Shown here: positions 2,624 to 25,503 of the stretch, piece by piece
Layout of the letters: each line of letters starts with the position of its first letter
Numbering within the stretch: the stretch's first letter is position 1
DNA from: Thermodesulfobacteriota bacterium
Lineage (GTDB): Bacteria > Desulfobacterota > Desulfuromonadia > Desulfuromonadales > Geopsychrobacteraceae
DNA: 59,677 bases
Assembly (NCBI GenBank): GCA_028282145.1
Contig: JANQIN010000168.1
Location: 1-59,677, forward strand
Direction: 5' to 3'
Position numbers and translations under genes: made by a program
Notes under the pieces: model-generated
Seen by the model: only the letters and a program-made list of their open reading frames with translations
Databases searched by the model: none
Told to the model about the DNA's origin: nothing

Positions 2624-4711
2624 GTGGTTGTGCAAAGAAAAGTTCACCCCATGTCCTGGTTCGACACGGAAGCGGCTTCTTCCTCCAGGTTCGACCGTTC
2701 TCTTTTGTGTGTCGGTCTTCTCCTTTCGTTGCTGGTAGCCATCCTGGCGTTTTATCCTCCGCCGGCTTTCCAGCGGGCCAAGGCCTCTGTCTACGACTTC
2801 CAGCACCGTGGCCTCTCCTCCGCGCCACCTTCCAGCCTGCCGCTGATTGTGGATGTGGATGAGCAAAGCCTGTCTCAATATGGACAATGGCCCTGGCCCC
2901 GCTATCGCCTTGCATTGTTGATAGCGAAGCTTCAACGTTGGGGGGCCAAGGTTGTTGCGCTAGACATGGTTTTTCCCGAAGTCGACCGAACTTCCCCTGC
3001 TGTCATAAAGGCCGGTCTGGAGAAGGAACTGAACATTTCGGTGAGCCTGGAAGGCGTTCCCGAATCGTTGCGGGACAATGACCAGGTTCTGGCGGACGTC
3101 CTGGCGCGCGGACCCGTGGTTTTAGGACACTTTTTTTTCTTTAATGAAAGATCCCGCTCGAATCGTTGCTCTCCTCCCAGCACCCCGATCGGAATCGTCT
3201 CCCAGGGAAACGAAGCCGCCGAGTTGGCGTTATATGACGCCCAGGGTGTTCTCTGCAATATCCCCCTACTGGCCCAATCAACGCCCCGGTCAGGTTTCTT
3301 CAACGCACGGCCCGACATCGACGGGGTTTACCGAAAGTTGCCTCTGCTCATCCGTTACGAAGGACGTATTTACCCCTCCCTCGCCCTGGAGGCCACCTTA
3401 ATGGCTTTGGGAGAACGTCAGCTGGTCGTTGAACAGTCGCAAGACAGACTCCTCTTACGTTTACCGCACCGCACCGTTCCTTTGGACCGTTTGGGGAATT
3501 TGCACCTGCGGTTCCGCGGTCCCGGCCATACCTTTCCCTACGTTTCGGCTGCGGATATCCTGAACGATGAGGTTTCCGCAACACTCTTTCAGGATCGAAT
3601 CGTTTTTATCGGATCGTCTGCCGCCGGGATCAATGACCGCAGTGCAACGCCCACCGATCCTCTGATGCCGGGAGTTGAGCTTCATGCGGTGGCGGTGGAC
3701 AACTTGCTGCAGCAGGATGTATTGCACCCTCCACCGCTGAGCGCGCTTCTGGAGGCTCTTTTTGCCCTGATCGCAGGCTCTCTCTTTACGCTTGGTGTAT
3801 TGCGGGCCGGTCCCTACTTCGGCGCTTTTCTCCTCGTTATTGCCGGAGCGGCTGTGGTCGCTCTCTCTCAGACGCTCCTGTCCAGGGAAGGGCTTATCGT
3901 ATCCCCGGTACCGGCCATCACGGCGATGATCCTGGTTCTCACCTGCCTTGCCATACTCCAGTATTGGCGCGAAAGGGTCCTCACTCAAAAACGCTTTCGA
4001 CAGTACCAACGAAGTCAGGAGGCAACCATCGAGGGGTTTGGGGCTTTGGCGGAATACCGCGATCCGGAAACGGGAGGGCATATCAAACGAACCCAGATCT
4101 TTGTCAGACTCTTGGCGGCACACCTGGCAAAGGAGAAGGCTTATCAGGGGGCCCTTCCCCTCTCCGCCGTAGAAATCCTGGGAAAAGCGGCCCCTCTGCA
4201 CGATATCGGAAAAGTGGGGATGCCCGACCATATTCTGCTCAAACCCGACCGGTTGTCAGCGGAAGAGTTTGAGTCGATGAAACGTCATACGATTTACGGT
4301 GCACAAGTCATTGAAACGATCAAAAAAAAGGTGGGTGACACGCCATTTTTACGGTATGCCGGCGAAATCGCCCTTTCTCATCAGGAGAAATGGGATGGAA
4401 CGGGATATCCGGCGGGACTGAAAGGGGAGACGATTCCTATTTCGGCGCGTTTGATGGCTCTGGCCGATGTGTACGATGCCTTAATCAGCAAGCGGGTTTA
4501 CAAACCGGCATTGAGCCACGCCAAAGCGAGAAAAATCATTCTCGAAGGGCGTGGGAGCCACTTCGATCCAGTCGTTGTGGATGCCTTTTTAAAGGTGGAA
4601 CAGGCTTTCCTTTCGGTCGCACTGCACCATGCCGACTCCGATGACCATCGGGAAGCCTTACTCAAGGAGGATGTCTCCGAAATGCCCGAAATGACCTCTA
4701 CCGCAAGTTGA
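2624..4711 (+). CDS. CHASE2 sensor domain protein with C-terminal HD-GYP phosphodiesterase domain
   Basis: N-terminal TM plus CHASE2-like extracellular region (VDVDEQSLSQYGQWPWPR...ALDMVFPE), TM helices, then HD-GYP motifs (PLHDIGKVGMPD, GTGYPAGLKGETIP). Confidence 0.88.
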   Translation: MVVQRKVHPMSWFDTEAASSSRFDRSLLCVGLLLSLLVAILAFYPPPAFQRAKASVYDFQHRGLSSAPPSSLPLIVDVDEQSLSQYGQWPWPRYRLALLIAKLQRWGAKVVALDMVFPEVDRTSPAVIKAGLEKELNISVSLEGVPESLRDNDQVLADVLARGPVVLGHFFFFNERSRSNRCSPPSTPIGIVSQGNEAAELALYDAQGVLCNIPLLAQSTPRSGFFNARPDIDGVYRKLPLLIRYEGRIYPSLALEATLMALGERQLVVEQSQDRLLLRLPHRTVPLDRLGNLHLRFRGPGHTFPYVSAADILNDEVSATLFQDRIVFIGSSAAGINDRSATPTDPLMPGVELHAVAVDNLLQQDVLHPPPLSALLEALFALIAGSLFTLGVLRAGPYFGAFLLVIAGAAVVALSQTLLSREGLIVSPVPAITAMILVLTCLAILQYWRERVLTQKRFRQYQRSQEATIEGFGALAEYRDPETGGHIKRTQIFVRLLAAHLAKEKAYQGALPLSAVEILGKAAPLHDIGKVGMPDHILLKPDRLSAEEFESMKRHTIYGAQVIETIKKKVGDTPFLRYAGEIALSHQEKWDGTGYPAGLKGETIPISARLMALADVYDALISKRVYKPALSHAKARKIILEGRGSHFDPVVVDAFLKVEQAFLSVALHHADSDDHREALLKEDVSEMPEMTSTAS

Positions 4712-24322: not shown

Positions 24323-24916
24323 TTACCGACCAATCCCCAGTCGTTGATAGAAACTGGGTTTCAGATAACGGAACGATTGGATGAACGCATCAAAGACCGG
24401 CCCATGGATATCGGAGAACGGCCTTCCCTCTTCTTCCCACTGCGTAAAGATAAAGGCCACAATCCGTTCTCCCCGATAGACAAAGAGGACGCGACCGCGA
24501 ACTTTGGATTTTTTCACGGGCTCATGCCCGACGACCTGCATCTCCAGCGCCGGCTTTCCGTTCCAGGAGGTTTCGACAAAGGTCGGTGTCTCAAACTGAA
24601 CCCGTGCCGCCCACAGGTAGCGTTTGAGGAACTCAGTGGCACGGGGTTTCAGCTCTCGGCTGTACCCGAACGGTTCTTCCGCATAGGAGATCGCCACCTG
24701 CCCGGTGAAGTTTCCGTCCCATCGGACAAAGGCCAGGGACACATCCTCTTCATTCATATCGTACAGAGCCCAGGGAGCCGGCGGATGGCGGAAGGCATAT
24801 TCCTCACGCCAAACCGATTCCTCGCCGACCTTCGTCAACGTCGGTGGTTCTTTCGGCGCCGGAACGACACAGCCTCCCAGAAGAAGCGCAAGAAGAATCA
24901 ACCATCCGTATCTCAT
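24323..24916 (-). CDS. Lipoprotein of unknown function
   Basis: Lipobox LLGGC; intact ORF overlapping (ATGA) the peroxiredoxin gene. Confidence 0.7.
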   Translation of the reverse strand: MRYGWLILLALLLGGCVVPAPKEPPTLTKVGEESVWREEYAFRHPPAPWALYDMNEEDVSLAFVRWDGNFTGQVAISYAEEPFGYSRELKPRATEFLKRYLWAARVQFETPTFVETSWNGKPALEMQVVGHEPVKKSKVRGRVLFVYRGERIVAFIFTQWEEEGRPFSDIHGPVFDAFIQSFRYLKPSFYQRLGIGR

Positions 24917-25443
24917 CGGTTCTCCTCGTTCAGCTGTTTCAAAAGGGTCAGAATCGCCTGATAATCGGGAGAGCCGTCCTGGACGTAACGCAGAATTCCG
25001 TTGCGGTCGATCACCACCGTGCGCCGGGAGAACATCGGCTGCGGCTCTTTCTCGGCCCCGAACATTACGCCCAAGTAAGCCGTCTGATTCGACAACAGGG
25101 GGAACGTCAGCCCGAGATCATCGGACCATTGTTTCAGGGTAATGGGGTTATCCATGCTGACACCCGCCACGCGGGTGTTGAGGCGCTCGTAGAGGTAGAG
25201 GTTCCTCTGGTGCCCCTCCATTTCCCCGGTTCAGACGGGGGTGAAAGCCGCAGGGAAAAAGGTCAGGATCAGATGGTGACTGCCGTAGATCTGGTTGACA
25301 TAGTCAAACAGACCCTGTGTGGAGGTGAGGGTAAATTCCGGCGCCTGGTCTCCAATAGAAAACGGCTTCACCTGCTGGGCCGCCAGAACCATCGGGCTCC
25401 ACAACAGAACGGTCAGTAGAAGAAAAATCGGTACCTGTCTCAT
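24913..25443 (-). CDS. Secreted peroxiredoxin (AhpC/TSA family), candidate selenoprotein with UGA at 25231-25233 read as Sec
   Basis: ORFs 25231..25443 and 24913..25221 are in the same frame, separated only by TGA ACC GGG GAA; continuous reading gives LILTFFPAAFTPV-U-TGEMEGHQ...VAGVSMDN...FPLLSN, with the UGA at the peroxidatic Cys of the TPVC motif. Confidence 0.85.
25196..25220 (-). promoter_or_regulatory. Candidate bacterial SECIS hairpin
   Basis: mRNA UGGAGG-GGCACCAGAGGAA-CCUCUA: 6-bp stem (one G-U) with a 13-nt loop starting GG, 10 nt after the UGA codon. Confidence 0.55.
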
Positions 25444-25503
25444 CGGGTCTCTCCAAATCTTGCTCTTTTAATGAGTATACCAACCCGAGAGACAAAAGCG
25501 GAA

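Follow-up and report, generated by a model that had tools for sequence, protein, structure and literature searches.

A gene seemingly interrupted by a stop codon almost certainly encodes an exported selenocysteine peroxiredoxin paired with a lipoprotein

The window analyzed here, a stretch of 59,677 nucleotides from a Desulfuromonadales draft genome in 278 contigs, carries two overlapping genes on its minus strand. The upstream gene runs from 25443 to 24913 and translates into 176 residues (24916..25443) with a single internal TGA at residue 71 (25231..25233) and a terminal TGA (24913..24915), confirming the sequence-only reading that this frame is open except for one codon. Its ATG at 25443 is preceded by a Shine-Dalgarno-like GGAGAG (25449..25454, minus strand), as read from the sequence, and the product comprises a predicted signal peptide of about residues 1 to 22 followed by an AhpC/TSA domain at residues 30 to 154. 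The downstream gene (24323..24916, minus strand) encodes a predicted lipoprotein of 197 amino acids with the lipobox LGGC and its Cys at residue 16, and its start codon overlaps the terminal stop of the first gene as ATGA. The list of open reading frames held only a C-terminal fragment of the peroxiredoxin frame, 102 amino acids long (24913-25221). Because gene callers split such genes, an annotation can easily overlook the enzyme as well as its coupling to the lipoprotein. A scan for promoters and terminators in the window gave nothing useful, with no consensus sigma-70 site on the minus strand, and the two other candidates for read-through genes within the window were weak and without merit.

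The product of the upstream gene is a full-length member of the AhpC/TSA family. It matches PF00578 over the whole profile (positions 1 to 124 of 124) with an E value of 1.3e-24 and 87 bits against a cutoff of 26, and the internal TGA lies in the context PAAFTPV[U]TGEMEGHQRN. This places it at the peroxidatic Cys position of the PxxxTxxC motif, as had been proposed from the sequence. Among the relatives compared, P64, T68, residue 71, and R140 are invariant. An AF2 model of the protein (pLDDT 89.5) matched Bcp and AhpE structures in Foldseek searches. Every copy checked lacks a second Cys in its mature part, which makes this a one-Sec peroxiredoxin. A hydrophobic N-terminal stretch, read from sequence as a signal peptide, recurs in copies across the family, in agreement with the earlier prediction of a signal peptide, and some copies carry a lipobox (e.g., L015, L018, and L062). 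At the position of the Prx6 active-site His, which we matched by eye from motif spacing, the window protein and most relatives have Phe (Phe63 in the window), and some have Val. A Tyr or Phe in place of this His is characteristic of AhpE-type enzymes (PMC12697902). By similarity searches, the protein would be an exported 1-Sec peroxiredoxin resembling AhpE, a name that conveys resemblance. As a separate observation, an ordinary Cys peroxiredoxin (FVPAAWTPVCSDQ) lies approximately 3 kb upstream of the Sec gene at two loci (L016, 9-506; L024, 1791-2399).

A TGA within a conserved gene could reflect a pseudogene or a sequencing error, in which a TGC or TGT Cys codon has mutated or been misread. 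Only a single change would be needed, and the window comes from a fragmented draft. The distribution of the codon effectively refutes this explanation, which we rejected and consider to have almost no chance of being correct. A pattern-based scan covering genomes of 84,980 species recovered 25 homologous loci, all from assemblies labeled as metagenome assembled and mostly from Desulfuromonadales, Syntrophaceae, Geobacteraceae, and Deferrisomatales, and the TGA sits at the same codon in all 25. When 277 genomes of the class were searched with a profile, the peroxiredoxin appeared in 23, in each as one copy with a single TGA; the one additional place without a stop, in genome G124, is the Cys paralogue L072. 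Matches in a sample of 395 genomes of the phylum were obtained in 20 genomes, again each with one TGA. Across these two whole-genome scans, 41 of 42 distinct family places carry the TGA, with the Cys paralogue as the exception, and it is for this reason that we do not regard the in-frame TGA as a lesion. The approximately 40 genomes with the TGA in one search and the 25 loci in another include single-contig genomes. Protein conservation is intact on both sides of the codon, synonymous constraint is confined to the stretch after it, and a search of the window's own genome saw one stop in the frame and no other lesion, bearing out the earlier remark that the flanking sequence is undamaged. No other disabling mutations were found in homologues, one of several points on which the selenoprotein reading could have failed; all those that could be run were favorable, with the TGA conserved across families and orders. 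There is almost no doubt that the seemingly broken gene is intact and that its product is an exported peroxidase containing selenium. Within the window's own family, the class search found the gene in no other genome; this distribution is patchy, through either loss or horizontal transfer.

The frame would be equally open if TGA were read as Trp, Cys, or another residue through a general change of the code or a suppressor. However, this gene itself terminates at a TGA, as do 40 of the 43 distinct copies among relatives, and TGA therefore still acts as a stop elsewhere in the same transcript. The codon also falls exactly at the catalytic Cys: TGA occurs in all close relatives, whereas four paralogues and ordinary peroxiredoxins have Cys there. 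Global reassignment of TGA was rejected on the basis of the genuine TGA stops of the family, and we consider any such change of decoding to be very improbable.

The machinery for selenocysteine insertion, which also speaks against a changed code, is present in the window's genome. The sequence-only reading had named the Sec genes as a check, and we identified selA (587 bits), selB (396 bits), and selD (364 bits) clustered on contig 226, as well as a tRNA-Sec (selC; 80 bits, anticodon TCA) on contig 5. Among the other genomes having the peroxiredoxin, selB was detected in 37 of 39, including all 25 with at least 90% completeness and at most 5% contamination; the two genomes in which the search found no selB are both incomplete (81% and 78%). 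The selD gene of the window's genome (L046, contig 226, 6506-7429) itself contains an in-frame TGA (SNSAG[U]AAKIG), and SelD is therefore probably a selenoprotein here. SelD is a known selenoprotein family (PMC1794560).

The region immediately downstream of the TGA (25174..25230, minus strand) has features of a putative bacterial SECIS element. Across 25 orthologues, codon homozygosity exceeds expectation by 0.33 at codons +1 to +20 after the UGA, compared to 0.06 upstream and 0.03 past codon +40. Synonymous choice is almost fixed from codon +5 to +24; for example, all 25 orthologues have CTC at codon +13 and CGC at codon +16. With the T of the TGA as the origin of the column numbering, APC-corrected mutual information among 39 sequences places 21-48 and 30-39, in this order, above every other column pair. 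Both fall within one putative hairpin, in which columns 20 to 30 pair with columns 39 to 48 (25214-25204 with 25195-25186, minus strand) as stems 20-24/44-48 and 26-30/39-43 around a loop at columns 31 to 38 that starts 27 bases after the UGA. Of 36 sequences, 34 preserve pair 30-39 as GC, AU, or GU, and an upper stem persists in divergent copies with altered amino acids. Columns 21 and 48 alternate between T/C and C/G, which in our reading fits a lower stem that can take either of two registers offset slightly from each other (20-48 with 21-47, or 20-49 with 21-48). Covariation is limited in extent: some controls with slid pairing partners score as high as the true pairing, so that only one or two pairs carry the covariation and the overall scores are not decisive. 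In the window's own copy, two pairs of the lower stem are mismatched, and the folding energy does not improve on that of shuffled sequences (z, -0.15). Folding of this single copy was not convincing as proof of a SECIS, and the case for the element consequently rests on the family. Apical loops of bacterial SECIS elements usually carry a guanosine (PMC1088965); a constant guanosine in loop 31-38 was not found across the family alignment, and a search of Rfam for named SECIS elements gave no meaningful match. The constraint and the placement of the two best covarying pairs in one hairpin are nonetheless what would be expected of a bacterial SECIS.

The lipoproteins, of about 200 amino acids, lie directly downstream of the peroxiredoxin, and in 37 of 43 copies the stop codon of the first gene and the start codon of the second share the sequence ATGA. 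Among the 277 genomes of the class, the lipoprotein occurs in 25: all 23 with the Sec peroxiredoxin; G003, in which a Cys form lies immediately upstream; and G126, in which the contig ends. The co-occurrence of 23/23 versus 2/254 corresponds to a Fisher P value of 1.3e-31 with shared ancestry ignored. Additional lipoprotein copies in G123 and G124 likewise follow Cys forms. The operon with a lipoprotein proposed from the window alone thus extends across the family, and genomic pairing suggests that the lipoprotein is a near-obligate partner of the exported Sec peroxiredoxin. Searches of Pfam, NCBIfam, and PDB by sequence gave no match for it. Its AF2 model (pLDDT 87) gave a Foldseek match to PsbP at 3.2e-6, with TM scores of only about 0.4 to 0.66, and DcrB and LpqN were also matched, so that a PsbP/Mog1-like fold is predicted; the likeness to PsbP/Mog1/DcrB/LpqN fold proteins is one of predicted fold, without a match in sequence. 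There were no other general neighbors in the loci compared. A macro-domain-like gene near or just behind the lipoprotein appears in 11 of 25 loci (L005, 1246-1785; L006, 6347-6886; L007, 6127-6666; L016, 4820-5362; and others), and further genes likewise appear in only part of the loci.

Since the start of the lipoprotein overlaps the stop of the peroxiredoxin, translation of the lipoprotein should depend on ribosomes passing the UGA. The UGA could accordingly be an adjustable stop that senses selenium, with the peroxidase and its coupled lipoprotein made only when selenium is ample and regulation being the point of the arrangement. However, such coupling may be ordinary control of stoichiometry, the Cys paralogues retain the lipoprotein partner too, and nothing favors a function for the short product; we regard selenium sensing as unlikely. 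The explanation that best accounts for the observations, and which we consider very likely, is a translationally coupled two-gene unit of an exported Sec peroxidase and a lipoprotein.

Sec peroxiredoxins of the TxxU type are an accepted bacterial family (PMC1794560, PMC1088965, PMC13188914, PMC9312934), reported from Deltaproteobacteria among others (PMC1794560, PMC1088965, PMC13188914), and members of the window's clade may already have been counted among them. The window protein shares with this family the AhpC/TSA domain, the PxxxTxxU motif, and a UGA followed by a hairpin (putative in the window), but differs in its predicted export, in having no other Cys, and in forming a tight two-gene unit with a lipoprotein. 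Text searches of three of these reports (PMC1794560, PMC1088965, PMC13188914) returned no mention of export or of a lipoprotein for Prx. PrxU of Eubacterium acidaminophilum (NCBIfam NF040737, peroxi_PrxU) likewise has Sec at the peroxidatic position, and the window protein scores 38.9 bits against a cutoff of 270 and is not a member of that family. The best solved relative by sequence is the 1-Cys enzyme AhpE of Mycobacterium tuberculosis (Rv2238c; 9.8e-20), which has a close fold (TM score of 0.89 on the target), a single catalytic residue, and no His at the Prx6 position, but has Cys instead of Sec and only about 30% identity to the window protein. AhpE is not known to have a signal peptide. 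The Sec peroxiredoxin class TxxU is thus already known. Should the Prx of Geobacter metallireducens and Syntrophus aciditrophicus, which PMC1794560 lists, turn out to fall within the window's clade, what is new would narrow to the export and the lipoprotein partner. In the open-licence papers covered, we did not find a description of an exported peroxiredoxin with one Sec that is coupled to a dedicated lipoprotein of predicted PsbP fold, which is a weak absence.

For the preferred reading of a coupled Sec peroxidase and lipoprotein, the following mechanism can be proposed. UGA71 would be decoded as Sec through the downstream RNA hairpin (SECIS), SelB, and tRNA-Sec, and the peroxiredoxin would be exported across the inner membrane. 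There, Thr68 and Arg140 would activate the Sec selenolate, which could reduce H2O2 or organic hydroperoxides. As no Cys occurs elsewhere in the mature protein, the resulting selenenic acid would need an external partner for its resolution, such as sulfide, a small thiol, or a redox protein of the periplasm. Translation of the lipoprotein would start at the ATGA overlap, and the most likely role of this protein is to anchor or stabilize the peroxidase at the envelope or to serve as a dock for the reductant. The enzyme itself is most likely a peroxidase of the envelope that depends on an external reductant. Sulfide is reported to reduce Prx6-type enzymes and, more slowly, AhpE (PMC12697902), and by analogy sulfide is a possible donor. 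A more specific proposal, which we put forward tentatively and at somewhat less than even confidence, is a dedicated peroxide defense module of the envelope in Desulfuromonadia-type and related bacteria, in which the exported one-Sec peroxidase without a resolving Cys would require the cotranslated PsbP-fold lipoprotein and be rereduced by sulfide or another envelope donor rather than by thioredoxin.

If the peroxidase reading holds, a selenium peroxidase would act at the envelope, the first part of the cell that oxygen and peroxide reach. Exported peroxiredoxins with one Sec further raise the question of which reductant acts on a selenenic acid beyond the cytoplasm when there is no second Cys. 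The lipoprotein is a concrete candidate partner; in the sediment bacteria with this peroxiredoxin, the enzyme would nearly always be made together with this one uncharacterized lipoprotein.

A distant paralogue clade (L072, L090, L101, L103, and L104), also predicted to be exported, has NAFG in place of PxxFT, and this loss of PxxxT suggests a changed function. The clade lends some weight to the alternative that the window protein is a Sec thiol-disulfide oxidoreductase or a selenium or sulfur carrier in a peroxiredoxin fold rather than a peroxidase, as does the existence of Prx-like thiol:disulfide oxidoreductases with Sec (PMC1794560). However, the window's own clade keeps PxxxTxxU and the Arg invariant and offers no second Cys for disulfide exchange, making a nonperoxidase role improbable. 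Four members of the paralogue clade have Cys (FIANAFGPNC) and one, L090, has Sec (FFANAFGEGU). Downstream of the Cys members lies a lipoprotein of the same family as in the window. As the Sec member L090 and the Cys member L072 are sisters (support, 100/98) and three more members have Cys, Sec and Cys seem to have been exchanged within the NAFG clade, in one direction or the other. At L072, a third exported gene, DsrE-like by eye, follows the lipoprotein (2688-3242).
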